From assembly GCA_015143295.1 (NCBI GenBank), contig CM026559.1, positions 16,134,826 through 16,198,825 of the forward strand: 64,000 bases of DNA, in the 5' to 3' direction. Shown in pieces: positions 1,492-60,912 of the stretch. Below the pieces are notes generated by a model, which was not told the origin of the DNA, did no database searches, and was given only the letters and a program-made list of their open reading frames with translations. Position 1 is the first letter of the stretch. Each line of letters opens with the position of its first letter. A program made the position numbers and the translations under genes. This DNA comes from Tetracentron sinense (Eukaryota > Streptophyta > Magnoliopsida > Trochodendrales > Trochodendraceae).

Positions 1492-1857
1492 TGTAGAGCC
1501 TTAGAACTTTAGCTATGTATTGGAACTCATGCCAAGGCATTTTTTCCTTTGTAATCCTCCTATTTCTATGAAATGAGAAAATTTAAAGAACTCTAAATGT
1601 TAAGAAGTAGTACTCCTAAGTCGAATATATCGAAAACCCGAGTTACTGAAACCCATTTGCGGATCAGTCGACTTCAGGGGTAATTTAATCAATAAATAAA
1701 GAATAAATTAGAAATTCAAAAATATCAGGAATGTTCCCCTTTGAAAGACGAATCCAACGCAAGTTGAATCGTCAAAATCAGGCAACCGAGTCAAAAGTTA
1801 TGGTCCAATTACCAAAGTAGGGGGAAAACTAGGAGAAAACAACAAGATCTGGAAGGT

Positions 1858-2096
1858 GTGATCGATCGCAAGTTTGCTACGATCGATCGCATGCAAGCGA
1901 ATTGGGTCCCAAAATCTTGGGGTCATATGCGATAGATTGATTCCCCAGGTGCGATAGATCACCGGGTTTTGCGATCGATCGCAAGAATGTGCGATCGATC
2001 GCATACAGGGGGAAATCAGACCAATATGTTCGGGTTCATGTGCGATAGATCGCATCCAGCTGCGATCGATCGCAAGGACCTGCGATCGATCGTATG
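1858..2096. repeat. Palindrome cassette of element A, word TGCGATCGATCGCA
   Basis: About nine copies of a 14-bp palindromic word, perfect at 1970-1983, 1990-2003 and 2061-2074, and degenerate (for example GCGATAGATCGC) elsewhere. Spacers are irregular at 7-40 bp, so this is not a simple tandem repeat. The 3' LTR has the same cassette at about 9411-9655 with extra point changes. Confidence 0.9.
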
Positions 2097-3437
2097 CGGT
2101 AACTGAAGCCGGATTTGAGGGTTTTAACCCTTGATCTATTTGAGGGTTTTCATTTTGGGGCATTTCGAACCTAGAGGAGAGAAAGAGGGAAGAGAAAGGA
2201 GAAGAGGATTTTGAGGGAATCCTCCAAGGAGCTTGGATTGAGAGATCAAAGGGAGTTCAAGCTTGGGAAATTGCAAGCAAGGGGCTTCCCCAATGCATCA
2301 CGAGTTCTCCATACCCAAGTGGGAGTTCTTCCTCAAGTTGGAATCCACATCAAGGGTGTCCTTCAACCCCAAATCAAGGTCGGTACCCTACAGTACCCTC
2401 CTAATTCATAGTCTCTTTTATTTTTTTGTTTTTCCCTAAATTTCTAAGCAAGATAATGTGGGGATGAATGGATGGTGGTGCGGATGTGAATGGGCGATTG
2501 GATGCCGTGTGTTTGTTGAAATGAATGAAATGGGGAGGGCATTGTACCAATAATGAATACACATGTGTGTTGTGATCGTTAACCCACCTAGAAATTCAAG
2601 GTTTAGGATTAACCATAATGCACATACCACGTGTTTGATGAAATGCCAATATGAAGGAGATGAGTTGCAAATGAAGAAATGTATGCTTAGAAGCTTACAA
2701 AAATTGCTAGGGTTTATGATAGTGTGATATGTTGCTTTCCCTAAATTGGTATGAATATTGATTTGCTCAAATTATTGATGTTCTATGTATTGCAAAATCC
2801 CCAAATTGTCATATTTAATTTCAAATGAAAGTATGCACACGATTCCACGAGCATGGCATGCATGACATGTTTTACCGACGGTTTTGCAAGAGTAAGGATG
2901 TTAGGGGTGGGACATATCTTACGATATGTTTTACCTCGCTTTTGACAAGAGGACAAGAATAAGTATTTCTTAGGTGGGAGTTTACACTTCCCTCCCTTCC
3001 ATGAGGGGTCTCCCCTCACTCACAAGTGCATTGCATTAAAGAAGGGTCTCCCTTCCCTCTCAAGGCAAATCATGAAAGAAGGGACTCCCTTCCCTCTCAA
3101 GGCATCTCACAAGCGCATCTCACAAGTACATGAGCATGTTAAATTGTCAAGCAAGCACGCATGACAAGCTTGGTACACGCATGACAGGCATGATACAAGC
3201 CTGATACGCATGACACGACGCGACACGACAAAACAAGACACATGACAAGACGAGTTTTAAAGCACGAAGCGAGGATTTTAAGTCAAGTCAAGTGCACGAT
3301 GTTTTCAAGAGATTTATCGATTTTTTAGAAAGGTAAGCATGAATATAAACTGTTTTACTTTCTTGTTATGATATGAATCGCTTCCTGTCTTATATTGTAT
3401 CTGCTATGTTATGGCTGTTGGTTAGTGTTTGGTACCC

Positions 3438-3458
3438 GCTGAGTATTCTATGCTCAGT
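3438..3458 (+). other. Conserved LTR hairpin GCTGAG...CTCAG (element A, 5' LTR)
   Basis: A short stem with arms GCTGAG and CTCAG(T) around a 9-bp TATTCTATG-type loop. The same element recurs at 10990-11010, 34993-35013, 53865-53885, and on the minus strand at 48838-48858, 61043-61063, 22229-22249, 58093-58113 (decayed) and 14813-14833. It always lies just upstream of a CAGG and the micro-ORF. Confidence 0.75.
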
Positions 3459-3468
3459 TGTACTTCTT

Positions 3469-3588
3469 ATGCCAGCAGGTGATAGCGGAGCGGCTGCTCC
3501 TTTTGATATCTGTGCTCCGAGCCCTTGGGGGGAGGACGAGTATGTCGAGGAACCTGTGGAGGAACCTCCGGTAGAGGGTTATTATTAG
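3469..3588 (+). CDS. LTR micro-ORF, acidic 39-aa peptide (element A, 5' LTR)
   Basis: An ATG in the CTTATGCCAGCAGG context opens a 39-codon frame ending TAG. The peptide starts M-P-A-G, has a core P-F-D-x-C-A-P and an acidic proline-rich tail P-W-x-E-[DE]-E-Y-V-E-E-P. Homologous frames occur in LTRs of A (3'), B, E, F and K, and more distantly in C and M. Between A and K many changes fall in third codon positions while the residues are kept or conservative, which suggests selection on the peptide. An open frame extends upstream to 3373, but that part is not conserved in frame, so I chose the ATG at 3469. It lies about 115 bp upstream of the TATA run, that is in U3. The function is unknown and translation is unproven. 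Confidence 0.5.
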   Translation: MPAGDSGAAAPFDICAPSPWGEDEYVEEPVEEPPVEGYY

Positions 3589-3703
3589 AGTGGTAGATTC
3601 TGAGTGAACAGCTGTGGGTGAGTTGAGAGAGATGTATTCATGTATTTTGGTGGGCCTGTCTGCACTTTCTTGTGTGTATCTTTTTGTATAAACTTGGATT
3701 ACA

Positions 3704-3713
3704 TATATATATA
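3704..3713 (+). promoter_or_regulatory. TATA run of element A 5' LTR
   Basis: A TATATATATA run followed by CATAGAGG. The TATATACATAGAGG-type block is kept at the same place in LTRs of A (3'), B, F, E and K, 160-180 bp before the LTR end, so it is the likely promoter. The transcription start would be about 30 bp downstream. Confidence 0.6.
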
Positions 3714-3886
3714 CATAGAGGTTTGGTTAAGTCTTCCGCTGTGCTATGTTAGAGTATGTTTCCGCTATTATGTCCTCTATTGTATATGCTCCAGGTCTTT
3801 TGCAGGTTATTTTGGTCAAGCAAGTTATGATGAGTCGTCCAAGATTCACTCTAACTCCTAGGGTGGGTTTTGGGGTGCGACAAAGG

Positions 3887-9042: not shown

Positions 9043-11445
9043 TGTAGAGCCCCGAAACTTTTGCTATGTATTGGAACTCATGCCAAGGAATTTTTGCCTT
9101 TGTAATCCTCCTATTTCTATGAAATGAGAAAATTTAAAGAACTCTAAGTGTTAAGAAGTAGTATTCCTAAGTCGAATATATCGAAAACCAGAGTTACTGA
9201 AACACATTTGCGGATCAGTCGACTTCAGGGGTAATTTAGTCAATAAATAAAGAAGAAATTGGAAATTCTAAACTACCAAGAATGTTCCCCTTCGAAAGAC
9301 GAATCCAACGCAAGTTGAATCGTCAAAATTGGGCAACCGAGTCAAAAGTTATGGTCGAATTACAAAAGTAGGGGAAAAACTGGGAGAAAACAACAAGATC
9401 TGGAAGGTGGGATCGATCGCAAGTTTGGTGCGATCGATCGTATGTAGGCGAATTGGGTCCCAAACTCTCGGGGTCATATGCGATAGATGGATTCCCCAGG
9501 TGTGATAGATTCCCGGGTTCTGCAATCGATCGGAAGAATGTGCGATCGATCGCATACAGGGGAAATCAGACCAATATGTTCGGGTTCATGTGCAATAGAT
9601 CGTATCCAGGTGCGATCGATCGCAGATAAGTGTGCGATCGATTGCATGTGGTAACTAAAGCCGGATTTGAGGGTTTTAACCCTTGATCTATTCGAGGGTT
9701 TTCATTTTGGGGCATTTCTAACCTAGAGGAGAGAAAGAGGGAAGAGAAAGGAGAAGAGGATTTTGAGGAAATCCTCTAAGGAGCTTGGATTGAGAGATCA
9801 AAGGGAGTTCAAGCTTGGGAAATTGCAAGCAAGAGGCTTCCCCAAAGTATCACGAGTTCTCCATACCCAAGTGGGAGTTCTTCCTCAAGTTGGAATCCAC
9901 ATCAAAGGTGTTCTTCAACCACAAATCAAGGTCGGTACCCTACACTACCCTCCTAGTTCAAAGTCTCTTTTATTTTTTTGTTTTTCCCTAAATTTCTAAG
10001 CAAGATAATGTGGGCATGAATGTATGGTGGTGCGGATGTGAATGGACGATTGGATGCTGTGTGTTTGTTGAAATGAATGAAATGGGAAGGGCATTGTACC
10101 AATAATGAATACACATGTGTGTTGTGATCGTTAACCCACCTAGAAATTCAAGGTTTAGGATTAACCATAATGCACATACCACGTGTTTGATGAAATGCCA
10201 ATGTGAAGGAGATGAGTTGTAAATCAAGAAATGCATGCTTAGAAACTTACAAAAATTGCTAGGGTTTATGATAGTGTGATATGTTGCTTTCCCTAAATTG
10301 GTATGAATATTGATTTGCTCAAATTATTGATGTTATATATATTGCGAAATCCCCAAATTGTCATATTTAATTTCAAATGAAAGTATGCACACAATTCCAT
10401 GAGCACGGCATGCATGACATGTTTTACCGACGGTTTTGCAAGAGTAAGGATGTTAGGGGTAGGATATATCTTATGATATGTTTTACCTCGCTTTTGACAA
10501 GAGGACAAGAACAAGCATTTCTTAGGAGGAAGTTTACACTTCCCTCCCTTCCATGAGGGGTCTCCCCTCACTCACAAGTGCATTGCATTAAAGAAGAGTC
10601 TCCCTTCCCTCTCAAGGCAAATCATGAAAGAAGGGCCTCCCTTCCCTCTCAAGGCATCTCACAACGGCATCTCACAAGTACATGAGCATGTTAAATTCCC
10701 AAGCAAGCACGCATGACAAGCATGGTACACGCATGACACGCATGATACAAGCATGACACACATGACACGATGCGACATGACAAAACAAGACACATGACAA
10801 GACGAGTTTTAAAGCACGAAGTGAGGATTTTAAGTCAAGTCAAGTGCACGATGTTTTCAGGAGATTTATCGGTTTTTTAGAAATGTAAGCATGAATATAA
10901 ACTGTTTTACTTTTTTGTTATGATATGAATCGCTGCCTGTCTTATATTGTATCTGCTATGCTATGGCTGTTGGTTAGTGTTTTGTACCCACTGAGTATTC
11001 CATGCTTAGCCGTACTTCTTATGTCGGCAGGTGATAGCGGAGCGGCTGCTCCTTTTGATATCTGTGCTCCGAGCCCTTGGGTGGAGGAGGAATACGTCGA
11101 GGAACCTGTGGAGGAACCTCCGATAGAGGGTTACTATTAGAGGTGGTAGATTCTGAGTGAATAGCTGTGGGTGATTGAGAGAGATGTATTCATATATTTT
11201 GGCGGTCCTGTCCGCACTTTCTTGTGTGTATCTTTTTGTATAAACTTGGATCACACATATATATATACATAGAGGTTTGGTTAAGTCTTCCGCTGTGCTA
11301 TGTTAGAGTATGTTTCCGCTATTATATTCTCTATTGTATATGCTCCAGGTCTTTTGCAGGTTATTTTGGTCAAGCAAGTCATGCAAGTTATGATGAGTCG
11401 TCCGAGATTCACTCTAACTCCTAGGGTGGGTTTTGGGGCGCGACA
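9043..11445 (+). repeat. Element A 3' LTR
   Basis: 2403 bp, homologous over its whole length to 1492-3882. Its palindrome cassette is at about 9411-9655, hairpin at 10990-11010, micro-ORF at 11021-11140 and TATA run near 11258-11268. It ends GCGCGACA followed by the CACTC duplication. Confidence 0.93.
11021..11140 (+). CDS. LTR micro-ORF, 39 aa (element A, 3' LTR)
   Basis: Starts M-S-A-G-D-S-G and keeps the core A-A-A-P-F-D-I-C-A-P and the acidic tail P-W-V-E-E-E-Y-V-E-E-P, ending Y-Y-stop. It differs from the 5' copy mainly at G to V, D to E and V to I. In this 3' LTR the frame lies between the end of pol and the LTR TATA, so it would be present near the 3' end of full-length RNA. No function is known. 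Confidence 0.5.
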   Translation: MSAGDSGAAAPFDICAPSPWVEEEYVEEPVEEPPIEGYY

Positions 11446-11450
11446 CACTC

Positions 11451-12205
11451 TCTTTCACAAGAGAGGAATTTAGGGCCACCCCTTCTTGGCTCTTGGTTAC
11501 TTTGCAATTTGGTCATTCATTATGATCTCATGGGTCATGAGAGATCCCAGCAGCTCATCCATTGGTAACTTGGTGAGGTCCTTTGCTTCTTGAATGACTG
11601 TAACTTTTGGAGTCCATTTCTTAAGCAGTGAACGAAGAACTTTCCTCACATTCTCTGCATTTGTATACACTTTACCCAAAGATTTCAATCCATTAATGAT
11701 GTTAGTAAAGCGGGTAAACATGTCACCTATTGATTCATCTTTTTCTATTTTAAACAATTCATACTTGTGAACAAGCATGCTAATCTTTTCTTCTTTAACT
11801 TGGTTTGTTCCTTCATATGTGACTTGGAGTTTATCCCAAATTTCTTTTGTAGAGTCACATTTGGATACTCGGTTAAACTCTTGATGGCTTAAAGTGCACT
11901 AAAGATTGCTAATAGCTTTAGCATTGATTTGGATGAGTTTAACATCCGCCTCATTCTATTATTCCTCAGTCTTGGGTATTTGTACCCTTCATGAGTTTTT
12001 ACAGGAAGATGGGCCTTTGACTATTACCCTCCAACACTCATAATCCAGAGCTTGGATGTAATACATCATTCTGGTTTTCTAATAGTTATAATTTTCTCCA
12101 TTAAACAGTAGAGGTTTGGTGGTTGACTGAATTTCTCCTAAACTGGTTGCAAAAAGTTTTCTGCCATCTCTATCATTTACTAGATTTTTTAGATCTAGCA
12201 AGAGT
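11451..12205 (-). pseudogene. Element L: copia gag N-terminal half
   Basis: Minus strand. From about 11900 down to 11497 it encodes a typical Ty1/copia Gag core (UBN2-type): W-D-K-L-Q-V-T-Y-E-G-T, then K-Y-E-L-F-K, F-T-x-I-I-N-G-L, V-R-K-V-L-R-S-L and the W-x-P-K-V-T-V-I-x-E-A-K-D-L block. A stop follows shortly before the insertion of A. Upstream to about 12205 the frame is broken. With 851-1491 it forms one gag interrupted by A. Confidence 0.85.
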
Positions 12206-12225: not shown

Positions 12226-12229
12226 TTTT

Positions 12230-14120
12230 TGGTCAGGTATTGATCCTAAAGGAGGGCGAATAGGGTCTATGGCAGATTTAAAATTTAGACTAAGTCTTTT
12301 ATGCGGAAATGATATTTATGCAACTACTAAAAATAATCAAAGCAATGCAGAAGTAAAAGGAGTTAAAGTTAGAGTATTAAACACCAAGATTTGTTCACGA
12401 GGTTCGGCAAATCTAGTCTACTTCCCGCCTCAATCTATTTCAGCTAGAGGGTTCACCACGATTCTTTAAATCGCACAGATTTCTTCCCAGGTGAAGCCTA
12501 AACTGTTATAACCTCTCTTCTAGGTCGAGACGGAACCTTTACACACCCTCCTTTAGGTCTGGATGAAACAATTACAATGCAAAAGCACCTCCCTCTCTTG
12601 CTGAAACGAAGCAACAACTTCAACTGCAAGAATCCAAGATTCTTGACTTTCTTTTACAGTGAAAGATCTTGGATTTAACAATCCAAAATAAAGCTCCTAA
12701 ACTAAACTGGATATGAGTTGAATGACACTCTTGAAAAGCTCCTCAAATAAGCTGAATTAAGTTGAATAACACTCACTAATTTCTAATAAAATCACTCAAC
12801 AGTGGGAGTTGAAAAGCTCATAAAACAGAGTATGAGGAATTTGGAGATTTTTCACTTAGAACAATGATGAATGAGATTCAGGTGATTTAGATTTGAGCAT
12901 TCATGCTTAATCATTCATATTTAATCTCTAATTATAGATCCCAGAAATTTATGGCCGTTGGAGAAGTATTTAATGCGATTTACTCATTATATATATAGTT
13001 GTTGAAGGCATTAATGACGTTCTCAGGTCATCCAGTCAGCTGGATGGGAGCATCTAGTCGTCTGGATGATTGCAGAGTCAAGACGCAAAATATAAACTTT
13101 CATCCAGTCATCTGGATGACATCAATCATCTCCAAATCCATATTTTTCAACTTTTACAAATCCAAATGGTTTCCAAATACTTTTTAATACATTTAGAATG
13201 ATAAAACTCAAAGTTTTATGATTATTAAAACAATTTAGATTGATTATCAAATGATCGAGAATGGATTCAAAATTTGGAAAAATAGTTCAGAGCCAAAATA
13301 AGATTTTTGGCCTATCCAGTCGACTGGATGGTGCAATTTTTGCACGCATCCGATTTTCATACTTTTGACATTTTGATTCAATTCAAAAACCTTTTTCCTT
13401 TGATTATAAATATGATAAACATGTTTTCAAGATCATTTAAAAATTATAAGTTGGTTTTACATTGATCATAAGATTGATCAAAGAGTGCAAATTCAAGAGT
13501 TAATGCACAGAGGCCAAAATCCATATTTCTGGCCTATCCAGTCGTCTGGATGGGACCATCCAGTTGACTGGATGGTGCAATATCTGAACCAATCTGGTTT
13601 TTCAAACCTTTTAAGATGATATTGATTTTCAAGGTTTTGTATTTTGAATTTTAAAGATTGTTAACTTATTTTAAGGTCTTTAAACATATTTTAATTTGGT
13701 CTTAAAAAACCTAAGGTCTTTCTAGGTAATTGAGTTTTTTCAACAATCAACCATGGAGGACTTCATACAAAAAGTCCTAAATCATTTTCCTACCTAAAAG
13801 ATGACTTTCTTGAGTCTTGGATCTTCAACATGATGCTTCAATACTTGATATCATCCAAGAAGTCTTTTTTTTCTTATGTTAGAATTTGGCATGAACTTCC
13901 TTGAGTTCCTTTAGGTTACTTGAAGCTTCTTGAGACTTTGACTTCTTTGCCCTTCTTCTTACTTTTGATAACATATTCATGACTTGAATTGAATGGGCAG
14001 CTAATGCCTTTAGATCACTGATTTTCATAATCACTTAAGATGACATTAGTACCTTAAAAGTCATTTCATTATTTAAGTTATCATCAAAACCAATTATGGT
14101 CCTTGGGATGTAACCTTTCA
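12230..14120 (-). repeat. Element L: 5' LTR (SIRE-like copia)
   Basis: About 1.9 kb, minus orientation, homologous to 1-850. It holds two groups of CCAGTCGACTGG-type words: around 13029-13119, and at 13314-13329 (perfect 16-bp palindrome ATCCAGTCGACTGGAT) and 13536-13573. The end at 14120 (TGAAAGG on the minus strand) is inferred from the TG/CA rule and similarity decay. No gene inside. Confidence 0.7.
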
Positions 14121-14441
14121 GCTAACAATATATAGCGCATCGTATACATCGAGGTATACACATAATAGTATTCTCATACCACCAATTTCCTAGTGAAACT
14201 AATCTTGAACTTTTGGTTAAGTCATTAAACGATTAGACTAAGACTATTTGATTAGTCTATACTTGGAATACAACTCCCTATATGTACCTAATGACTTTGC
14301 TTGCTACCCGTTATGTCATGGTATCAAACTTGTAATCGAAAGTTCATCTGAGTTTTAAGTTCAACTCAAAGAACCGACATAACCTAAACCTAACTTCCGC
14401 TTAGCCATGGGAAACTAATCCCTGAGCTCTGATACCAACTC
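14121..14441 (-). mobile_element. Element M: leader and primer site fragment
   Basis: Similar to the leader of C (about 57440-57682), including GAAACTAATCCCT and the primer site. On the minus strand TGGTATCAGAGCTC lies at 14424-14437. Leftward, M is interrupted by the LTR of L, so its gag-pol would lie left of the window. Confidence 0.75.
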
Positions 14442-16069: not shown

Positions 16070-16414
16070 TTTCATCTTTAGGTTCAAGTATATTATTTTG
16101 ACAAGGTATATAGTAGAGAGTATCTACCTCACAAATAGCATTTCCCCACGATCGAAGCGGTTTAGGATACTCCATGGACCGAAGAACGGACTTCGACTTT
16201 GTTGAAAAACACAAGTCCAAGAACACTTGGCAAACCCTAGCTTCTATCTCTCTAAAAACTCTTCAAAATATTAGCTAAGGGTTGTGTAAACCCTAACACC
16301 CATGAAATGGGTGCATTTATAGGCAAAGGGGTTTTCAAAAGACCCCTTAGCCCTTAAAAAATATCCCACAAGGTTGGCCAAGCAAAAAGGGCAGGAGTTG
16401 TTTGACGGGATTTC

Positions 16415-16545
16415 AAGTTGGTCGACCGGATTGCCCAATCTAGTTGAAAGGCCAAAAGATCCCCTTCTGGATTTTTTCTCATACAAACTATTGAGGCAGT
16501 CGGTCCACCGGATTTAGGGTCGGTCAACCGGATGCCCCCATTTTT
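16415..16545. repeat. Palindrome cassette of element M, word CGGTCGACCGG
   Basis: GGTCGACCGGAT at about 16420, then the spacer TTCTGGATTTTTTCTCATAC (from 16465), then GGTCCACCGGAT and GGTCAACCGGAT near 16503-16532, followed by CCATTTTTGCC. The architecture is word, TTCTGGA...CATACAAA spacer, words, TTTTTGC, as in C, E and N. Confidence 0.8.
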
Positions 16546-16757: not shown

Positions 16758-18226
16758 ACTAGCCCCTGTGGGCGTCTTCACCAACCACTCAAAAATTTTC
16801 CTACAGACACTAGGGTAAGTCGAGGAGTGGAAGTTGAACACAACCACATGGAGAAAACCTGGGATACTAGCCAACTGCTCCAACCCCTGGTGGGTTCAAA
16901 CACTATTTATATCTTGGCAATGTTTCAATGGATTAAACCAAAATAAGGAAAAAAGAAACTAAATTTAATCCATTACCAAAAAAATCAACCTCTAATGTTT
17001 GAGTTGAGAACTCATAAATTCAAGGGGGTGGCTAGGTCTCCCTACAAAGTCTATCTACCCTTTTTAATATTTAACAATTAAGTTATTAATTAAGGGATTA
17101 TGAACTTAAAGTGCGGAATAAGGGAAACAAGCAAACCACAACACCAGGATTTTTACGTGGAAACCCTTTCGGAAAAAACCACGGGACCTAGTCCAACAAT
17201 GAGAATCCACTAAAACAAAGAAACAAATACTTACAAGACTCGAACTGTACTCAACCGGACTTGACACTACAATCCTCAGTACTCAGTCTTTAATGCCTCT
17301 GAAAGCAATCACGATCTCGCAAGCCTCTCAATCTACCGCAGTAGCATGTTCTTTTCTTTGTGTCTCGATAACCACGATCTCCACAATCGATCTCCGTCAA
17401 TGACGGTTTCAAATTCCACCGACCAAATATTACATCCACGATCCTTCTCCGATCGATCTCCTTCGCAAAGGCTCCAAAACACTCCAACCAATTTGTTCTT
17501 TCCAGAATGGATTAATGGTTTGATTTAAAATCAAATCTTAGATGGATTTCATCAATAGGAAAGTCGAAGCAAGCAATAATGGAACATTGGCTTACAAACT
17601 CTAGGATAGAAGAGGATAATAAAGGGGAGGAGAGAAAACAAATATGGAGTTTCTATGAACTCTAGAGATAGCCTAATACCCTCTCAATACTCCCCCAAAG
17701 TCCCCCTTCACGGACTAGAAGAGTTCACATTAAATAGAGAACCAACCCCAAGGAATTAGAAACTGTTAAAAAATGAATTTAGAAGGAAATTCCATATCAG
17801 GGTCGACCCTGAGTGCTTTGGGTCGACCCAAGTTTACACTTCGGTCGACCCAAGTGACACTTTGGGTCAACCCTCAAAATTCTCATGTTCTGGAAAATTT
17901 TCCCATACAAATTCCTTGAGGGTCTGGGTCGACCCTGGAGAGCATTTTTGGCATTTTTCTTCATTTTATTCCCTAATGCTTTGCTTCAATTGGTCTAGGC
18001 TTTTTGGAATCATTTTCTATGATTTTGGAAATTTCCATATGAATGATTTTTGGTCTTCTAAGTCTCACTTACCATCCTAAAACTTGAGCCATTCTTGGGT
18101 GATGATTCTTCATGCTTTATCATGACATCTTCTTTGCTTTTCATCGAACCGGATGATGTGACCTAAGGAGTACTATACCCACTTTTGGACTCAGAATTTA
18201 GCCAACAAAAAAACCATGACTTTACA
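16758..18226 (-). repeat. Element N: SIRE-like copia 3' LTR (left edge not resolved)
   Basis: On the minus strand the LTR starts TGTAAAGTCATGG at 18226, right after a polypurine tract. The TTTACGTGGAAACCCTTTCGG block near 17150 is typical of plant copia LTRs. The left limit is uncertain; 16758-17000 may be flank. It contains a GGGTCGACCC cassette. No gene inside. Confidence 0.6.
17799..17945. repeat. Palindrome cassette of copia element N, word TGGGTCGACCCA
   Basis: Words at 17800-17810, 17819-17830 (perfect 12-bp palindrome), 17842-17851, 17863-17874 (GGGTCAACCC) and 17925-17937. Between the fourth and fifth lies GTTCTGGAAAATTTTCCCAT followed by ACAAA (17887-17911), itself containing the palindrome GGAAAATTTTCC. 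The cassette ends near CATTTTTGGC. Confidence 0.88.
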
Positions 18227-19568
18227 ATCTCCCCCTTTGGCAATTCCGAGACAAAACCAAACTGAAGTACATGACTTGACAAAAACTCACCCAAACACAT
18301 CAAACGGTGAATTAGGGCATTTACATGACTCCAACACAATTACATGACACCAATTGACAAATAAACTTAAATGAAGACACTGAAGCTCTTGTCAAGTAAG
18401 ATCTGTCTGCTACATCTGCACATGGTCATAAATAAAACACTCAGTGAAGTATGTATGGAATATGAAACTAAATAACCACAGTAACCACAGGTATTGCAAG
18501 GAATGTACTAAACTAGGGAAATAATACCCTAACATTCTCCCCCTTTTTGGCACAATTACCAAAGGTAGTTATGAAGCCAATATCACAACGAATATATCAA
18601 TTTAACACATGACTAATATCAAGGCAATCACAATACAACCAATCAAATGCAGACAATGTGGGGACTAAAGAGCGGGGAACAAAATAGCAATATAAAGCAC
18701 AAACTCACCCTCAACAACTCAACTTGATCTTCTCCTCCTAAGATCAAGGACACCACCAAAAGCAGGGCACCTATGCTAGAAAGGCCCATGCCAACTAATA
18801 AGGAAACACATAATAATAATACTAAAAAGGTATCATGTGCCACACAAATATGCATCGAAAGCATTCCAAGCAGTAGTAATTTAAAATTACAGATCCAATG
18901 AAGAACATGATTAGTTAGTCTGATTGAGGATACACATCTAAGTAAATCTTACGGAACGCTAAAGCATAACCAATTCACTTAGTCACATTTAGTGAAGAGT
19001 TCAAAAGTGAAGCAATATGTGTGTAGTGGTGGTCTAAGTAGATACTAAATCAAGGTTTCTTTCCCTCTCCAAGGATATGACATTAACCATTAAGGGGACT
19101 CCGGAGACACAAATCTTAGAAGTAAAACCTAGTTAGATCCAGATATGCTGATTTTTTTACATTTTGGTGCTCTTTTATCCATTTTCTTTGACTCAATATT
19201 TCTTTTTAACTTTTGGTCAAATACCTCCAAACTCTGTAAGATTTCTTTTGATGTTCATTATCTGAACATATCTTTTCATGCAATGATGGATTTCACACTA
19301 TCTAGGTAGGTAGTCCTGGCTATTGGCAGCAGGGGCTTTCACTTTAGCAACCCAACTACTGTCCGCATAGGTAGCCGTTACATACTGTTTACAACCAATA
19401 GTGACTTTCACACTATCTTAGCAGGTAGCCCTTTACATTGCAATAATTTTTGCTCATGGAGGATACACAAAATGGGGATTGTGAGTAATGAAATTATGAC
19501 ACCAGTTTGAGCCAGGGTTCACCAACTTCAGTGCACCCACTTCACACCGAATCAAAAGGAGATGGAAT
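18227..19568 (-). mobile_element. Element N: polypurine tract and 3' non-coding region
   Basis: At 18227-18245 the minus strand reads GCCAAAGGGGGAGAT, a polypurine tract against the LTR. A second tract, TGCCAAAAAGGGGGAGAAT, lies at about 18534-18552; doubled tracts are known in SIRE-type copia elements. The rest is AT-rich with no coding similarity. Near 19290-19435 a block TTTCACACTATCT..GGTAG is repeated. N is cut off at about 19569 by element I. Confidence 0.6.
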
Positions 19569-20888: not shown

Positions 20889-21819
20889 AATTAATGGCAC
20901 GCCCGGTGGGACTTTCTTCTGCTCTCATCTTTAAAAAAAGATAAAAAATAAGAAGAACAAAAAAAAAAGATGAGTGATTCTTTCCTCTCTTTTCTTATTG
21001 TCGCTGACTAGGATCATCGAGACTGTATGCATTCGTTGGGCCTACACCCTGACCATCAACTGGTGGGTGTACGTACTCCCAATCTGGATCCCGGTGACTC
21101 ACCCACTCACCTGGGCCGAGGTGGCAGTATCTCCAGCCAGGCAGGTCAAGCCAATTGGCCAGACCTCTGCAAAAAGGCCATGGTCACTAGACCAGGCCTC
21201 TGTTGAAGACGCTCTAATCCATAACAGAAGCAGGACCCACACCATCAACTCAGGGGTGGAAAGATAGTCTACCCGCCTAAATAAAAGTCAGGCAGCCCAC
21301 CCACATCAGGCTGCTTGCCAAAAGCAGGTCGCCAGTCCGCGGGTATCCCAGAGGATGCCAGCCAGCCGATGGGCACCTCAGAAAAGAAGTGCCCACCTGT
21401 AGATATATCTGTCCGTGGAGACAAAGGAGGGTGCACCCAACCGGGTGCACACAAGGCAAAGTGGCTCAGCTACTTCGTGATAGGTCAACCCAAAAGGCAG
21501 ACCTATGTCACTGGAAACCCTGAAAGGGGATTCCAACTTTGTTAACCCTTTGGGGTCAACTAATGGAGCAAGCTCATTTCGAGCCCAAACCATAAACCAG
21601 TCAAGGTCTAAACAGGAGAAGCCTTATAGGTCAATCCTAAAACAGACTGTTGAGGTCCCCTAGCCCAAGTCGGTTGTTGGGAGTCATCCTTCAAAAGTTT
21701 ATCAACAGAAGGGAGATGCTGCCCAAATTATCTCAGAGCGAAAGAACAAGGCCACTGGCCTAAAGGATTTTATGGAAGCTTTTCCAGCAAAGTTGCAGAG
21801 AACCACTCCGCAAACCGGA
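20889..21819 (+). mobile_element. Element I: primer site and leader, left part
   Basis: TGGCACGCCCGGTGGGAC at 20895-20912 looks like a primer binding site and lies 6 bp after the LTR end. The sequence that follows is non-coding and again hairpin-rich: GTGCACCC-AACC-GGGTGCAC at 21431-21450 is perfect. Open frames here show no recognisable domain. The leader is interrupted by C at 21820 and continues at 59480. Confidence 0.55.
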
Positions 21820-22072
21820 TATCGTGACCCAAATACCCCTAGGAGTTAGGGATACTTTAGCTTGTGACTGTCGTGTCATACCATCCCGTATGACACATAA
21901 GGCACACATACTAAACTATCGGAGTACACAAGTTATACATGGCGGAAACGATTTAAAATCAATTACTCCTATCATTTGGTTCAAGTTTGAACCAACAAAA
22001 TATATATCCAAAATATGGAGTGGACAAGTCCCACTCTCAACATAAGCAAAATATCTCCTCTTCCTAACATAG

Positions 22073-22207
22073 TCAGCAGAAGTCAAAGTCGAGCCGCCTA
22101 TCTGGTGATCCATCATCCTGGTAGTGGTCCATAGAAGGCTTCGGGTTGTAGTATTTTTCCTCTACCCAAGGCTCTGAACCACACAAGTCGAAAGGAACCA
22201 GTGCACC
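22073..22207 (-). CDS. Micro-ORF homologue in element C 3' LTR
   Basis: From the GGT after CAG at 22207 an open frame of 44 codons ends TGA at 22073. It reads G-A-L-V-P-F-D-L-C-G-S-E-P-W-V-E-E-K-Y-Y, then P-S-M-D-H-Y-Q-D-D-G-S-P, and ends D-F-D-F-C. The P-F-D-x-C...P-W-V-E-E core matches the peptides of A, B, E, F and K. The copy in the other LTR (57938-58075) keeps the same frame with W-I-E-E-E-Y-Y-D-P-E-P. The hairpin upstream is in a different frame relative to the core than in A, so coding homology begins at the CAGG. Confidence 0.45.
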   Translation of the reverse strand, partial: GALVPFDLCGSEPWVEEKYYNPKPSMDHYQDDGSPDRRLDFDFC

Positions 22208-23190
22208 TGTCGATGATAACAAATATCGGCTGAGCGTGGAATACTCAGCGTATACATACTACTAACAACAAAGCAATAATATCATGGAAGTATGCGAGGC
22301 ATGGAGACTGAAATCCTTAAAATATATCAAATTGTAGAAACCATGAAATAGCATGTGTGATGACATCCGAAAACTAAAACCGTGTAAGTCTTGCGATAAT
22401 CATAGCCTTGTGAATTCTCTGAGCCGTGTTAAGTTCATAGAGTTCCTTAGAGTCATTTATGATCCATAGAGCCTTAGAGCAATGCCGTAGAGCAAAACCA
22501 TAGAGATCTTAGAACATTTATATTTATGATCCTTAGAGCTTGTACATCTATCTTAGACCTTATCATAGAGTTCTTTGTGAGTTCAATATGATCCTTAGAG
22601 CTTGTGAACCGATCTTAGACAATATCATGGGGTTTCTTAAAATCATCATATGAGTCACTTATTCAAAACCCTTCTTATAACTTTGAGAAATCCATAAAAA
22701 ACCCGGTTCATGCGAGATATGAGAAGCATATGAGAATAATAACATATTTAAACATAAAAGTCCTTAGAGGCACTAAACCAAACATATAGAGTGCATAATA
22801 ATGGTAGTTTACATCCAAGTATAAAAGCAACATCACGCACCATATCAACCTAAGATTTTTGGCATAGAATGAGAAAAACATCATGTGGTGAACTAGTATT
22901 ATCACAAGTTTGGTAGTAGAATGTATCTACCTTGGTGAAATCGATGAATTCGATTCCAAGGGCTTGGAACAAGTGAGAACCTCAACTTCTTAGTTGGAGA
23001 ACACCAAAGAAGGGAAGATCTTGATCTTTTCTTCGAGCTTGAGCAACACCCTAGCTTTCCCCTTTCTTCTCCTCTCTAACTTTCTCAAAAATATGCCCTA
23101 AGGGTTTCTGAAACCCTTAGGCACGAGCTTTATAGGCAAGGGTGGTGGTTAAAAGAGTTAAACACCCTTAATGAAGCAAAACTGCATATA

Positions 23191-23380
23191 ACCGATCGAT
23201 CGGTGGTCAAGATCGAGCGATCGGTGGCATACCGAGTGATCGGTGTTTTGACCGAGCGATCGGTTGAAAACACCCTCTATGGAATTTTTTCCCATACAAA
23301 ATTTTTGACTAGTTGATAAATACCGATCGATCGCTGGTTGACCGAACGATCAATATTATCACCGAGCCATCGGTTCTCCC
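23191..23380. repeat. Palindrome cassette of element C (3' LTR), word ACCGATCGATCGGT
   Basis: A perfect 14-bp palindrome at 23191-23204, then degenerate copies (ATCGAGCGATCGGT, ACCGAGTGATCGGT, ACCGAGCGATCGGT), the spacer CTCTATGGAATTTTTTCCCA plus TACAAA (23275-23300), then three more words to about 23374 and CTGTTTTTGC. The 5' LTR copy is at 59062-59245. Confidence 0.9.
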
Positions 23381-23610
23381 CTGTTTTTGCTGCAAAATCC
23401 TTTTCCCACTACTTGGACCTTCTCCTTTCAAACTCTAACACCTTGTACACTCAAAACACACTCCCTTAGGCTATATATACCTATCAACACATGCACACGA
23501 TATATCCAAACATTGTCATTAGCATAAAACCCATTAGGGTACAAGACTCCACTTGAACACCATTCACACACTATTCACTACTCAATTAAATGAAGATTGG
23601 GGGTTCTACA

Positions 23611-25144: not shown

Positions 25145-26525
25145 TGTAATGCCCCAGAATTTTAATATAATAAAATTATGGGTTTATTGGTCCTTAATTG
25201 GGGTTAATAAGTTAAGTATTTAATTAAATTATGAAAAGTGAGTTTGACTCAGGATTGAGTTGTATTGATAAAATCTCAATATTTCTTCTCGAAAACCGCA
25301 CAGTGTGTTGGTCGACTACCGGGATCTTCACCTGTCATATTGATCCCATCAGGTATCGTCTCGCAGGACCGCAGGGACATCATGTAAGAAAATCAAGAAA
25401 ACGAAAAATTTCCAGATTTTCAAAAATTAAGTGGGACTCAATATTTCTTGGGAATCCTAATAGAAATCCGTTCGGTTGATACCAGTGGGTGCTGATCGGT
25501 CGTGGGAACTAACATCTATCGTTTCGGCAGTTAGTTATCTCAAATGAAGAAACGGCGGCCTGTTTTGTGTCTGAAATCAGGAAATTAGTGGGTTTTACAG
25601 TTTTCTTCCAGACAAAAGTGCAGCTGTCAAAACTCAATATTTTTCCCTGAAATTTTTATAGCGGGTGTCGGACTGTTCCTAGTTCGGTCACTTGAAGTTT
25701 CGATTTCGTTGCATGTCATTTAGTAGGGTTACGAGAAGCCGTAAACGTGGAAAAACGGGATTCTGGTCAAACCAGTCAATGCCTTGTCATCATGGCCCAT
25801 GTGATAAGCACATGGCTTTCACATGGCCTCACCACCTAAGCACCACATGGCTGTCCACATGCCTATGTAAAGAGGGTTAAACCCCTTCATTTCTCACACA
25901 TAGATTAGTGAGGCGAGACTCTACCCCCATAATTTTTAGAGAGAGAAAGTGAGGAGAGAGAAAGGAAGAGAGAGAAAGAGGAGAGAGAAAGGAAGAGAGA
26001 GAAAGGAAAGGGAGGTCCCCTTGGGGTTTTTCGATGTCCCCGACATGTTGGCGACGTTCAATTTTATCTCTAGTATCTCGATTGGCATGTAGAGAGAGAA
26101 AGAGAGAAAGTGGAGGTTAGAGAGAGGAGGTTTATCTAGAGGTTTTCTAGCATTCTGATCGCATTGGCGATGACCATTTCAACATCCAGAGCCTCAAAAG
26201 TTGTGTAGTAGGTAAAATCCCTCTCCATCTCTTCTCTTTTCCCTTGTTTAAGCTACTTTAATTATGTGGAATGGTTAGGTGATATTATGTGTGGATGGAA
26301 AAAGGTCGGAGACCTTACTAATGATGTATGGATGAGATGGATGAGAGTGAAAATGGAGCAGAGGGATGGAGCCCTTGTTTTCGGGCTGTTTCTAGATCGG
26401 AATTTAGGCTCAGTGTAATTTGCGATAGATCGCAGGGGAAGTGCGATCGATTGCACCACAAGAAGTTATGAGAGCTTGACTGGGCTTCTATATGTGTAAT
26501 GCGATGTGATTTTGACATTGTAAGG

Positions 26526-27487: not shown

Positions 27488-29552
27488 TGAAAGTATGCCT
27501 CTTTTTAATTTTAGAAAAAAACAGTTCTTGGGGGGCATACATCGAATCCCAAGATCTGACTAAGATTCTAATTGATTTTATTCAATGAAGGTTAGAATAA
27601 CATCACCTTTGCGACTTTGAAATTGTTAAGTCAAATCCACGTTAGAATAGTACTCGGAAAACTTCACAAGTGTCAAGTCTCCTGTCGATTCACACGAACC
27701 TTCTTTTTCCTTTAAAGCTTTCTCTAATAGAAGCTAATGGCCCTTCCAAATTTCCATGCTCTTTTATCTTTTCTTCTTTTCTTTGATTCAAGAACCTTTC
27801 TTGATCAAACAAGATCCAATCTTGATTTTCAAAGAACTTGTTCTTGATCATCAAGATCAAAAACCAAACAAAAAAGAAGAAGGAGAAGGGTGATCGTACA
27901 CCCTCAAAGGGGGAGAGGGCTGGGCGTGAACTAGAGGAGAGGGAGAGAAGAAAAAAAAAATTCTGGAGAATTATATTATTTAAAGGGCTGGGTATCCAAT
28001 CCTTTATATAAGTTCCCTCTTGGTTGCTTGAATTGTAATCCAATTATAATTCATTAACCTTATCCTAAATCAATTAGGATTCCTCAATAGTTTCCTTTAA
28101 TTAGTAACTAACTAACTAACTAACTAACCTTATCTAATAAGGATATTAGTTATTAGAAACTAATTAAATAAATAATAACAATTATTATTTCCTCCATGAA
28201 GTGGGCGTCCCACCCTAGGTGGGTCCCACCCTACACACCTAAAGGGTTTCCAAAACCCTCTTGGTCACTTGAATTATTCTTTTTTTAATAATTCTCAATG
28301 GGTCCTACCCATTTGGTTTTTCACATCCAATGTGATTCCACCGTTTAGAGCTTCACTATACCAAATAGTGATTACTTAGAGAAATTAATTAATTTAATTA
28401 TAAATTAAATTAAATACTTTAAGAAGGTCCTTGGGTGTGGGATCTAAAGAGATCTTCTACTTTCGGTTGTGGGACCAAGTACTTCACCTTTTTGGTTGAA
28501 GCATTGTTACTAGGAAACACCTTTCCTATACTCCATTAGGATTATAGAATTTTATCTATATCCCTAGACTTCCACCAATCACAATTAATGTCCATTAACA
28601 CAATGTGAATAACCTCCAGAAATTAGAGAATTGCTTATAAGTACCATCTCACAATATATTTACAAATAAATCCTTCCACATTTCGATATCACTTGTAAGC
28701 TTCCGGGATTGGAACAATTCCACTGTCTTAGTCCCTAGCTTATGAATAGAACCCTTTCTCGTGATTACTTTTTCAATGAACTGAACCTCCAAAACACTTT
28801 TGAAGAAACATTAGAAAAGAACTGACATATATATTTATATATACTTTTCCATATTAAAAATATCAACTTCGATAAAGACTATTTTACCGAAAAACACCAG
28901 TACTGGATTTAACAGATCAGTTCAATAAGTATCACCTTGATATCATTATCTCCAATTAAGGAGTTGTGGATTCCTTATTGAGTGTTTACACACTTCTCCA
29001 AACATAGTGTACATGACCCAACGTACCCGGAGTTAGTCCTGTGTATTGGACATTGCCGATTGGCACATCAAAGCCATATAGACAAATGTCTGAGAAGATG
29101 TTAACCTCTCAGGTCTAAGGACAATTTGTCAAATAGATAACCCTAATACAATCTGACAGTGTATTCCATAGGGTATCCACTAGTGACCCCGTTCAGTATT
29201 ATGTACTTGCTACATATACTCATATGTTAGTCAAGAGTCACCACTCTCTCTAAATGAGATTCATCACACTATCTCATAGAACTACACATGTGAAAGCCAT
29301 GATGAAGTACGGCATCCAACCAGTACTCTAGAGGCTTCGAACAATATTAGGTTTACAAGGAACCGGAAAATCATATCTCCTCGCAACCTTTGCATGATTT
29401 TCTTACAATATTACCTATGGAATTTTATGTCTTCATCATATGAGACAGTAATTAATATAAATACCCTTTATAGTTGGTTGTGTGAATATGATGCTTATCT
29501 AATCAACATAGAAAAGTCTCTTATTGGCTTCCGAGGGCATATATATCTAACA
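27488..29552 (-). repeat. Element J 3' LTR
   Basis: 2065 bp, reading TGTTAGATATATATGCCC from 29552 on the minus strand and ending GGCATACTTTCA at 27488. It is close to 37673-39879 but lacks a 142-bp stretch present there. A 117-codon open frame (27690-28043) is shared with the other LTR and shows no known domain. Confidence 0.92.
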
Positions 29553-32745: not shown

Positions 32746-32961
32746 TGTAGAGCCCTGGACCTTTTCACATTTAATGCATGACACTTTCGTTGCCATTTTG
32801 CCTTTAAAGAGGTATAATTAATAAATAAGGAAGAAATTGGAAATTCCAAAATGTCAAAAATGTTTCTTTTCGAAGTACGAACCCAACGCAAGTTGAATCG
32901 TCAAAATCGGACGAACGAGTCAAAAGATATGGCCAAAACAGTCTGGACCTGCAAGAAATCG

Positions 32962-33460
32962 TAGCTCGGAAGGCACTAAGGACGTAGCTCGGAAGGCACT
33001 AAGGACGTAACTCGGAATGCACTTGAGGACGTAGCTCGGAAAGCGCTAAGGACGTAGCTCTGATAACGTGCTCTGACAACGTGCTCTGATAAGGCACAGA
33101 CAACGTACTCTGATAATGTATACGTTGTGCATCCGTTGTGCAACAGACAACGGGTACATTGTACAGCAAACAACGGGTGCGTTGTACAGCTCACAACGGG
33201 CACGTTGTACATAAGACAACGGACAACGAGCTCAGCACTATGCACAACACAACGTGACAACGGGTTCGGTACCCTTCACAACGGACAACGTGTTCGGCAC
33301 TATTCACAGCACAACGTGTTCGGCACTATTCACAACACAACGTATTTGGCACTATTCACAGCACAACGTGTTCGGCGCTATTCACAGCACAACGTGTTCG
33401 GCACTATTCACAGCACAACGTGTTCGGCACTATTCACAGCTCAACGTGTTCGGCACTCGT
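32962..33460. repeat. Serial minisatellites in solo LTR K
   Basis: In order: about four 23-bp units (GTAGCTCGGAAGGCACTAAG core, to 33060), short ACGTGCTCTGATA units (33060-33120), about 25-bp ACAACGGGYRCRTTGTACA units (33130-33250) and six 26-bp units with core TTCGGCACTATTCACAGC (33294-33460). The last is the same motif family as the arrays in B and F. Confidence 0.88.
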
Positions 33461-37672: not shown

Positions 37673-39879
37673 TGAAAGTATGCCTCTTTTTAATTTTAGA
37701 AAAAAACGGTTCTTGGGGGGCATACATCGAATCCCAAGATCTGACTAAGATTCTAATTGATTTTATTCAATGAAGGTTAGAATAACATTCACCTTTGCGA
37801 CTTTGAAATTGTTAAGTCAAATCCATGTTAGAATAGTACTCGCAAAACTTCACAAGTGTCAAGTCTTCTGTCGATTCACACGAACCTTCTTTTTCCTTTA
37901 AAGCTTTCTCTAATGGAAGCTAATGGCCCTTCCAAATTTCCATGCTCTTTTATCTTTTCTTCTTTTCTTTGATCCAAGAACCTTTTTTGATCAAACAAGA
38001 TCCAATCTTGATCTTCAAAGAACTTGTTCTTGATCATCAAGATCAAAAACCAAACAAAAAGGAAGAAGGGGAGGGGTGACCGTACACCCTCAAAGGGGGA
38101 GAGGGCTGGACGTGAACTTGAGGAGAGGGAGAGAAGAAAAAAAAAATTCTGGAGAATTATATTATTTAAAGGGCTGGGTATCCAATCCTTTATATAAGTT
38201 CCCTCTTGGTTGCTTGAATTGTAATCCAATTATAATTCATTAACCTTATCCTAATCCAATTAGGATTCCTCAATAGTTTCCTTTATTGATTATTCTCCTA
38301 ATCCAATTAGGATTAATCTTAAAAGAAACCAACCTTATCCATTAGTAACTAATCTTATCCTTATCCAATGAGGAATCTTGAATTAGTAACTAACTAATGG
38401 AATCCCTAACAATTAGGGAATCTTTAATTAGTAACTAACTAACTAACTAACTAACCTTATCTAATAAGGATATTAGTTATTAGAAACTAATTAAATAAAT
38501 AATAACAATTATTATTTCCTCCATGAAGTGGGCGTCCCACCCTAGGTGGGTCCCACCCTATATGCCTAAAGGGTTTTCAAAACCCTCTTGGTCACTTGAA
38601 TTATTCTTTTTATAATAATTCCCAATGGGTCCTACCCATTTGGTTTTTCACATCCAATGTGATTCCATCTTTTAGAGCTTCACTATACCATATAGTGATT
38701 ACTTAGAGAAATTAATTAATTTAATTATAAATTAAATTAAATACTTTAAGAAGGTCCTTCTGTGCGGGATCTAAAGGGATCTCCTATTTCCGGTTGTGGG
38801 ACCAAGCACTTCACCTTTTTGGTTGAAGCATTGTTACTAGGAAACACCTTTCCTATATCCCATTAGGATTATAGAATTTTATCTATATCCCTGGACTTCC
38901 ACCAATCACAATTAATGTCCATTAACACAATGTGATTAACCTCCAGAAATTAGAGAATTGCTTGTAAGTACCATCTCACAATATATTTACAAATAAATCC
39001 TTCCACATTCCGATATCACTTGTAAGCTTCCGGGATTGGAACAATTCCACTGTCTTAGTCCCTAGCTTATGAATAGAACCCTTTCTCATGATTACTTTTT
39101 CAATGAATTGAACCTCCAAAACACTTTTAAAGAAACATTAGAAAATAATTGACATATATATTTATATATACTTTTCCATATTAAAAATATCAACTTCGAT
39201 AAAGACTATTTTACCGAAAAACACCAGTATTGGATTTAACAGTTCAGTTCAACAAGTATCACCTTGATATCATTATCTCCAATTAAGGAGTTGTGGATTC
39301 CTTATTGAGTGTTTACACACTTCTCCAAACATAGTGTACATGACCCAACGTACCCGAAGTTAGTCTTGTGTATTGGACATTGCCGATTAGTACATCAAAG
39401 CCATATAGACAAATGTCTGAGAAGATGTTAACCTCTCAGGTCTAAGGACAATTTGTCAAATGGATAACCCTAATACAATCTGACAGTGTATTCCATAGGG
39501 TATCCACTAGTGACCCCGTTCAGTATTATGTACTTGCTACATATACTCACATGTTAGTCAAGAGTCACCACTCTCTGTGAATGAGATTCATCACACTATC
39601 TCATAGAACTACACATGTGCAAGCCATGATGAAGTACGGCGCCCAACCAGTACTCTAGAGGCTTCAAACAATAGTAGGTTTACAAGGAACCGGAAAATCA
39701 TATCTCCTTGCTACCTTTGCATGATTTTCCTACAATGTTACCTATGGAACTTTATGTCTTCATCATATGAGGTAGTAATTAATATAAATACCCTTTATAG
39801 TTGGTTGTGTGAATATGTTGCTTATCTAATCAACATAGAAAAGTCTCTTATTGGCTTTCAAGGGCATATATGTCCAACA
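37673..39879 (-). repeat. Element J 5' LTR
   Basis: 2207 bp, near-identical to 27488-29552 except for a 142-bp extra segment near 38280-38425 made of TAATCCAATTAGGATTA and TAGTAACTAACTAA phrases, which look like local duplications. Confidence 0.92.
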
Positions 39880-51317: not shown

Positions 51318-51659
51318 TGTAGAGCCCCAGACTTTTTCATGCTTAATACATGACACTTTCGTTGTCATCTTGCCTTTTTAAGAGGTATGATTAATAAATG
51401 AGGAAGAATTTGGAAATTTTGAAATGCTAGAATTGTTCCTCTTCGAAGTACGAACACAACGCAAGTTGAATCGTCAAAATCGGACGAACGAGTCAAAAGA
51501 TATAGCCAAAACAGTCTGTACCTGTAGGAAAACGTATACTGTGTGCATCCGTTGTACAGCTCACCACGGGTACGTTGTACAACTCACCACGGGCACGTTG
51601 TACAACTCACCACGGGCACGCTGTACATGAGACGACATGACAACGGGTTCGTCACCCTT

Positions 51660-52510
51660 GACAACGCCACCACGAGTTGGCACTATTCACGCCACCACGA
51701 GTTGGCACTATTCACGCCACCACGAGTTTGCACTATTCATGGCACCACGAGTTGCACTATTCACGGCCCACGAGAGGCACTATTCACAAGCACCACGAGT
51801 GGCACTATTCACGGACCACGAGTGGCACTATTCACAAGCACCACGAGTGGCACTATTCACGGACCACGAGTGGCACTATTCACAAGCATCACGAGTGGCA
51901 CTATTCACAAGCACCACGAGTGGCACTATTCACAAGCACCACGAGTTTGCACTATTCACAAGCACCACGAGTGGCACTATTCACAAGCACCACGAGTTTG
52001 CACTATTCACAAGCACCACGAGTAGCACTATTCACAAGCACCACGAGTGGCACTATTCACGGACCACGAGTGGCACTATTCACAAGCATCACGAGTGGCA
52101 CTATTCACAAGCACCACGAGTTTGCACTATTCATGGCACCACGAGTTGGCACTATTCACGCCACCACGAGTTGGCACTATTCACGCCACCACGAGTTGGC
52201 ACTATTCACGCCACCACGAGTTTGCACTATTCATGGCACCACGAGTTGGCACTATTCACGCCACCACGAGTTGGCACTATTCACGCCACCACGAGTTTGC
52301 ACTATTCATGGCACCACGAGTGGCACTATTCACAAGCATCACGAGTGGCACAAGCACCACGAGTGGCACTATTCACAAGCACCACGAGTTTGCACTATTC
52401 ACAAGCACCACGAGTGGCACTATTCACAAGCACCACGAGTGGCACTATTCACCGACCACGAGTTGACACTATTCACAGCACCACGAGTTGGCACTATTCA
52501 CAGCACTATT
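51660..52510. repeat. ~34-copy minisatellite in solo LTR F
   Basis: About 34 units of 23-27 bp sharing GGCACTATTCAC followed by AAGCACCACGAGT, GCCACCACGAGT, GGACCACGAGT or TGGCACCACGAGT. Sub-types come in blocks: the GCCACCACGAG/TTGGCACTATTCAC type at both sides (51665-51745, 52140-52320) and the AAGCACC type in the middle, a higher-order pattern. All three forward frames are open across most of the array, which is a by-product of the repeat. Confidence 0.95.
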
Positions 52511-60627: not shown

Positions 60628-60912
60628 TATCGAGACCCAAAACCCACCCTAGGAGTTAGAGTGAACTTTGGATGACCAAAACAACCTGCAACAGACCTGG
60701 AGTATACACAATAGAGGACAATAATGGCGGAAACATAAACTATAAAGCACAACAGAAGACTTAACCAAAAACCTCTATGTGTATATACATATACATGATC
60801 CAAGTTTATACAAAAAGAAATACACAAAAGAAAGTGCGGACAGGCCCGCCAAAATACATGAATATACTTCTCTCACTCACCCATAGCTCACTCACTCAGA
60901 ATCTACCACCAC

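Follow-up and report, generated by a model that had tools for sequence, protein, structure and literature searches.

Blocks of palindromic words were found in the LTRs of both gypsy (families A, C and E) and copia (families L and N) retrotransposons of the window, which is the whole 64-kb stretch of DNA that was analysed. The words are regularly spaced, several families share an anchor sequence and a common frame of word positions around it, and a TATA-like box lies just downstream of the words in four families. With a probability of about 0.6, we consider these blocks to be promoter-proximal U3 enhancer arrays on which a dimeric host factor would bind the words and a second factor would bind the anchor, both the protein and its binding being putative.

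Self-comparison showed that the window is a nest of LTR retrotransposons, whose type points to a plant host, and the following LTRs carry word blocks.

1492-3882, plus strand: 5' LTR of A, 93.9% identical to its 3' LTR at 9043-11445
57681-59479, minus strand: 5' LTR of C, 92.1% identical to its 3' LTR at 21818-23610
60630-62805, minus strand: 3' LTR of E, with the end of a gypsy pol at 62806 and above
12229-14127, minus strand: 5' LTR of L, then a copia gag at 11500-11898 (minus strand)

Family A belongs to gypsy, with RVT_1 and RNase H domains found in Pfam, and so do C and E, in which the pol adjoining the LTR is homologous to that of A by self-comparison. Families L and N belong to copia: a PF14223 gag stands beside the L LTR (Pfam), and for N a PF14223 gag frame (locus L090) lies elsewhere in the genome between two N-block copies that are 5 kb apart on the same strand. 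The occurrence of the words in both superfamilies, as originally claimed, was borne out. M was grouped with gypsy on weaker grounds, namely the likeness of its LTR start to that of C only, where the alignment score was 53 and the largest of 500 shuffles reached 33; against E, A, N and L, 241, 52, 294 and 36 of the 500 shuffles scored as high (here and in the block alignments below, the shuffles moved two-base pieces and were not strictly dinucleotide). A direct repeat pair at 27488-29552 and 37673-39879, 96-97% identical, flanks the region of the solo LTR F; these may be the two LTRs of a further element into which something has inserted.

The word arrays are as follows.

1858-2094, plus strand: A, 5' LTR, nine perfect or near copies of TGCGAT[CA]GATCGCA
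9411-9655, plus strand: A, 3' LTR, eight copies
23191-23380, minus strand: C, 3' LTR, ACCGATCG[AC]TCGGT and variants
59062-59245, minus strand: C, 5' LTR
62425-62595, minus strand: E, ACCGATCG[AC]TCGGT and variants
16415-16545, minus strand: M, three imperfect words of the TCCGGTCGACCGGA kind
17797-17945, minus strand: copia N, TTGGGTCGACCCAA / CAGGGTCGACCCTG
13028-13574, minus strand: copia L, six words CATCCAG-NNNN-CTGGATG
26421-26455, no strand assigned: G, a putative LTR, two imperfect A-type words

The arrays of C, E, M, N and L are read on the minus strand. Counted by LTR and not by whole element, and after near-matches sharing a register had been removed by visual inspection, there are about nine and eight words in A, six to eight in C, six each in E and L, five in N and three in M.

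The TCGA-centred words were confirmed where the original prediction had placed them, and its expected excess over shuffled sequence was also found. In fact, 23 TCGA-centred perfect palindromes of at least 10 bp were observed against 2.88 +/- 1.75 expected from 200 dinucleotide shuffles in 2-kb blocks of the 64-kb window, among which the largest count was 9; at 12 bp or more, 13 were observed against 0.76 expected (largest shuffle count 4). These 23 are part of the 98 perfect palindromes of at least 10 bp with any centre, and other centres were less enriched (AATT 16 against 10.1, ATAT 15 against 7.3 and TATA 14 against 5.9; among palindromes of at least 12 bp, AATT 12 against 2.6 and ATAT 7 against 2.0). 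Eighteen of the 23 lie inside the predicted blocks, including one at 17797-17812 that begins two bases ahead of the predicted edge of the N block, and five lie outside, at 6424, 26743, 44591, 50809 and 55124. The TCGA palindrome was claimed too widely: M has no perfect one of 10 bp or more and L has one, their remaining words keeping the arms with a variable centre. Moreover, the words differ as predicted, though not with one word for each family, as A and G have a common word and so do C and E, so that the words mark groups and not single families.

The LTR positions at which the words start are +210 (E), +212 (M), +234 (C), +281 (N), +373 (A) and +554 (L). The TATA-like boxes were located as follows.

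59001-59006, minus strand: C, TATAAA, 56 bp after the words
16316-16321, minus strand: M, TATAAA, 94 bp after the words
17730-17736, minus strand: N, TATTTAA, 61 bp after the words
12992-12997, minus strand: L, TATATA, 32 bp after the words

Such a box therefore lies just downstream of the words in four of the six families (C, M, N and L); the same regular expression found no TATA in E, and no recognisable TATA was seen within 300 bp after the words of A. The position of the words is that of the upstream promoter part of U3.

The words had been described as irregularly spaced, which was wrong: from one word centre to the next the distance is in most cases 19-22 bp, and longer jumps recur near 40, 50-51, 60-62, 71 and 90-92 bp, and in L also above 200 bp. 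With a strict word detector (at least 6 of 7 pairs) applied to five sets, namely A, N, C, L and the anchor blocks, not a single step of 5-17 bp was found in any set, and a step of 24-34 bp occurred once, in the anchor set. The share of steps at 18-23 bp was 0.60 in A (8 copies), 0.57 in N (19 copies) and 0.65 in the first 40 anchor blocks, and it was 0.16 in C and 0.11 in L (30 copies each), where we think that decayed words were missed by the strict detector. In L, an arm-based detector over 30 genome copies placed 81 of 178 steps at exactly 22 bp and 24 at exactly 50 bp; word pairs 22 bp apart recur across these copies, with at least one such step in each of the 30. A looser detector (at least 5 pairs) gave 201 of 323 steps at 18-23 bp and 25 at 5-17 bp in 60 anchor blocks, and we infer that the latter are mostly second registers of one word. 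The best-fitting periods of the modal offsets were 10.05 bp for the C/E frame, 20.15 bp for locus L100 and 20.95 bp for N. These values correspond roughly to one or two turns of the helix, although a firm claim would need more than three frames.

The anchor, TTTGTATGRGRAAA, is common to the blocks of C, E, M and N and is usually followed by CAGAGAG. Its five exact matches in the window all lie in word blocks, on their sense strand.

62505-62518, minus strand: TTTGTATGGGGAAA, in E
59158-59171, minus strand: TTTGTATGGGGAAA, in the C 5' LTR
23287-23300, minus strand: TTTGTATGGGAAAA, in the C 3' LTR
16474-16487, minus strand: TTTGTATGAGAAAA, in M
17898-17911, minus strand: TTTGTATGGGAAAA, in copia N

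No exact anchor was found in A or L by the window search. When up to two mismatches were allowed, the window held eight matches against 3.97 expected, and the three additional ones lie outside the blocks. Throughout the 1.16 Gb genome, which was the scope of all genome-wide searches, 7486 forward and 13575 reverse matches were obtained for the anchor with a TYC tail, some sites among the latter being counted twice owing to the variable gap; the reversed pattern matched 6 and 4 times, respectively. Sixty anchor sites were then taken in their listed order on one chromosome, leaving out a likely sister LTR and a duplicate N copy. At least two words were present at 59 of them by the looser detector, and locus L118 has imperfect words by eye; 57 of the 60 have at least two words of the CGATCG type, the exceptions being L100, L107 and L118. 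A search for anchor plus word in viral contigs gave two matches, of lengths 48 and 45, which were taken as chance.

The words stand at fixed distances from the anchor. Among the 60 anchor blocks, an ACCGA....TCGGT-like word (at least 8 of the 10 arm letters) was present at exactly -28 in 52, at -47 in 50 and at +43 in 47. Genome-wide, the pattern anchor+N{18,40}+GTCGAC had 165 + 175 = 340 matches against 0 + 0 for the reversed control, and the palindrome centre lay at exactly +43 in 85 of the 100 matches listed, out of 23 possible lengths. As these matches are related copies, the counts are not independent; the linkers of the listed +43 matches are nevertheless far apart in sequence, forming 23 clusters with a mean identity of 0.41 between representatives. 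The CAGAGAG after the anchor is often retained in them, and the 13 bases preceding the word much less so. The longer pattern anchor+N{41,71}+GTCGAC had 206 + 258 = 464 matches against 0 + 1 in the control; of the 100 listed, 43 had the centre precisely at +65 and another 17 precisely at +87. The bands +63-66 (66 matches) and +84-88 (25 matches), which were chosen after inspection of the data, together took in 91, with 31 lengths possible. In eight blocks picked by hand from different linker clusters (L153-L160), words stood at two or more of the N-type offsets (about -39, -19, +43, +65 and +87) in six, and L154 and L158 had fewer. Same-strand anchor+GTCGAC pairs 4.5-5.3 kb apart were also noticed by eye, eight among the 100 matches listed (for example, G000:C2:52818908 and 52823870), suggesting a short, perhaps non-autonomous copia population.

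Different words occupy this frame. In C/E (gypsy), ACCGATCG[AC]TCGGT is placed at about -67, -47, -28, +43, +64, +83 and +104; at locus L100, ACCGGTCGACCGAA-like words are placed at -57, -38, -17, +43, +64, +83 and +104; and in copia N, TTGGGTCGACCCAA is placed at -39, -19, +43, +65, +87 and +107. Gypsy C/E and copia N thus have the anchor in common and downstream offsets within 0-4 bp of each other, but the words are different. The offsets do not agree everywhere: +83 against +87 and +104 against +107 differ by 3-4 bp, and the upstream words of L100 and N are shifted by about 10 bp, or one helical turn, relative to C/E.

That the words are binding sites of a dimeric factor, a possibility raised in the original prediction, remains the best explanation because the arms are symmetric, the spacing is about two helical turns, TATA is near in four of the six families and the words differ between families. 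Each word would be an operator of two half-sites for a homodimeric DNA-binding protein, with the family-specific identity carried by the arms and the centre being TCGA or a close variant, and neighbouring dimers would be placed about two helical turns (19-22 bp) apart. The anchor TTTGTATGRGRAAA would be read by the second factor and would set the frame in the large anchored group. Upstream of it, words would be put at about -67/-47/-28 (C/E), -57/-38/-17 (L100) or -39/-19 (N); on the downstream side they would be put at +43, +64/65, +83/87 and +104/107. In C, N and M, the distance from the last word to the TATA-like box is 56-94 bp. A frame common to gypsy and copia would most simply have arisen through recombination of blocks, and the words, changing together in a block, would probably track different members of one host DNA-binding family. 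What we infer in this scheme is the protein and its cooperativity, that it activates, which way the blocks were transferred and why the words turn over.

The common layout with a spelling that varies by family suggests a swappable binding code for a putative regulatory protein. A broader proposal can be made, tentatively and with some doubt: a promoter grammar across superfamilies, in which the anchor and the helix-set words are exchanged as a block and the word serves as a swappable address for members of a fast-evolving family of dimeric DNA-binding proteins. If so, by changing all words at once while the frame is undisturbed, families could partition host regulators among themselves or escape repression. 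In Tnt1, U3 regulatory blocks reportedly differ among subfamilies of one element, and we know of no common anchor with swapped palindromes there. The pattern points to regulatory blocks that pass from one superfamily to the other, gypsy and copia, with their recognition words changing in concert, and it may therefore offer a natural system for the co-evolution of cis-sites and their readers. The anchor, the exact offsets and the alternative words provide ready pairs of bait and control for pull-down or DAP-seq.

An explanation at the RNA level, which we consider unlikely, would be that adjacent words form hairpins and that these supply small-RNA silencing or lead it astray; this has been proposed for the LTR palindromes of maize Sirevirus. 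The palindrome region of maize Sirevirus was reportedly described as a small-RNA hotspot by Bousios et al. in 2016. In the predicted fold of A, neighbouring words pair into long hairpins, and the folding z-scores against shuffles were -5.0 for A, -7.7 for N, -2.5 for E, -2.4 for C and -2.8 for part of L, all better than the two controls (-1.0 and +1.3). However, the fold of M does not surpass that of shuffled sequence (z -0.9), the exact DNA spacing between anchor and word would be needless for hairpins, and any palindrome may yield small RNAs as a consequence. Furthermore, changes in the arms that break a pair (A.C, 357) outnumber the wobble ones (G.U, 233), in a count whose loose thresholds admitted non-words, above all in N; RNA pairing is thus apparently not what is kept, and RNA structure as the selected feature was not supported. 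From the passages available of the published work, the LTR palindromes of maize Sirevirus are hotspots of small RNAs (PMC10760457, PMC5311732), which favours the hairpin explanation and would make palindromes silencing targets rather than sites of escape. The region concerned resembles the blocks here as a palindrome-rich, fast-evolving, cis-regulatory and hairpin-capable part of the LTR, but maize Ty3/RLG elements generally have no clear peak of such structures in the text of PMC10760457 available to us, while the arrays here are also in gypsy.

The dimeric-factor reading has next to be set against shared descent, in which an ancestral block recombined between LTR families and its words drift neutrally, being homogenised by short duplications or conversion. 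The homology of the anchor between gypsy and copia blocks and the similar downstream offsets of N and E are in its favour. In block alignments, N-M scored 62 (largest of 300 shuffles 44), E-M 58 (largest shuffle 43) and E-N 42 (1 of 300 shuffles as high); E-L and A-L were no better than shuffles, and no homology of L to the other blocks was detected. E against A scored 47 in the same direction (3 of 300 shuffles as high) and 63 reversed (0 of 300), which we think is driven by the common CGATCGATCG core, and nothing was drawn from these scores. The alignment of C with E in the self-comparison covers the block and not the rest of the LTR; A and E have a flank in common but not the words; and loci L107 and L118 carry the upstream U3 stretch of A and E (CCAACGCAAGTTGAATC...) with words of the GGTCGACC kind. 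From these relations it follows that the block behaves as a module whose words differ together, and the first two would also fit descent. The anchor and the similar offsets in C, E, M and N mean that block ancestry or exchange between superfamilies explains much, so that the claim of a design going beyond shared ancestry was only half right; A and L alone are without a detectable sequence link.

Arm conservation bears on the same question. In L, the column-based diversity was 0.096 in the arms, 0.178 in the background and 0.221 in the linkers, and only 1 of 794 circular shifts was as low. In N, the arms (0.123 against 0.143 in the background) did not differ significantly, with 184 of 472 shifts as low, and the arms of C were more divergent than the background (0.146 against 0.096), likely through CpG deamination of the CpG-dense word, an effect that was not separated out. 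Conservation of the arms was accordingly found in L only, a confinement that suits neutral drift. On the other hand, drift is not expected to retain the symmetry of the arms word after word, the arms of L are conserved relative to the linkers, and the spacing is exact (85 of the 100 matches listed) despite differing linkers (0.41 identity), and we regard pure descent as quite improbable. At loci L109 and L126, C/E-type words and the anchor were observed inside LTRs with quite different flanks, and these could show one word in both superfamilies. No LTR-element frame was found in the 3.5 kb downstream of L126 or of L100; five frames from downstream of these two were tested in Pfam, with one match, a zf-RVT downstream of L100 that is probably a LINE remnant.

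It is very improbable that the words are sites for a co-evolving anti-silencing protein encoded by the elements themselves, in the manner of VANC. VANDAL elements are DNA transposons. The words resemble the VANC targets, which according to the available portions of Hosaka et al. 2017 (PMC5735166) are short motifs that differ among related elements and accumulate in non-coding regions, in being family-specific, fast-changing and repeated non-coding motifs. Unlike the words here, these motifs are never termed palindromes in the text of PMC5735166 at hand (0 uses), and they have a known element-encoded reader according to the same text. Against such a protein, no additional DNA-binding frame was recognised among the selected proteins given to Pfam, and one protein would have to act across gypsy and copia. 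Drift of microsatellites or tandem repeats in TCGA-rich sequence, by which the original prediction had allowed itself to be undone, can practically be dismissed, even though tandem-repeat calls, few and short, overlap the blocks in places (2041-2092, 17816-17873, 23191-23264 and 62540-62593): it is ruled out by the word offsets, fixed at hundreds of listed or counted loci, together with linkers that differ between copies, and the TCGA excess survives dinucleotide shuffling.

Palindromic boxes in LTRs are not new in themselves, and in this respect the prediction had been anticipated: the portions of Bousios et al. 2010 available to us (PMC2829016) describe palindromic, family-specific RM boxes upstream of TATA in Sirevirus LTRs. 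According to the same portions, RM boxes are clustered, mostly start 200-400 bp into the LTR, number at least eight per element and form CpG islands; TCGA is the centre of two words, from Vitis (CGGTCGACCG) and Tnd-1 (ACAATCGATTGT), among the 13 that were published, all except Tnd-1 have a CGG-CCG core, and the boxes are called Sirevirus-specific, being absent from the other copia elements compared (PMC2829016). The arrays here would function in the manner of these boxes; they are likewise repeated, palindromic, family-specific and placed in the LTR, and the start at 200-400 bp is matched by C, E, M, N and A, but not by L (+554). The CGG-CCG core is present in the words of M, L100 and the L107 type (CGG-NNNN-CCG), but absent, in that order, from those of A, C/E, L and N. 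Unlike RM boxes, the arrays also stand in Ty3/gypsy LTRs (A, C and E), and they have an anchor and fixed offsets, neither of which is described for RM boxes in the available text of PMC2829016. We therefore call the arrays a variant of the RM-box kind, since taken as a group they lack two features that define it, the core and the copia carrier. Among the literature matches listed, mainly open-access text, there was no published account of gypsy arrays, anchor or fixed offsets, and the letters of words and anchor led, among the matches listed, to unrelated papers only. What is new here is the gypsy members, the anchor, the fixed spacing and the differing words on one frame.

The carriers N and L were assigned by PF14223 as far as copia. 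Purine tracts followed by AT/TG have been published for Sireviruses, and two AAGGGGGAGA-type purine tracts were observed upstream of the N LTR (18226-18550, minus strand), the last of them followed by AT/TG. Palindromes are also reportedly favoured by LTR elements as insertion targets (PMC6911290). Finally, LTR families B, D and F have tandem arrays of 23-26 bp in the 5' part of the LTR (32960-33457, 42463-43009, 50183-50699 and 51550-52506; one unit with TTGTACAA) and no TCGA words there, as if another type of repeat occupied the place of the word array.
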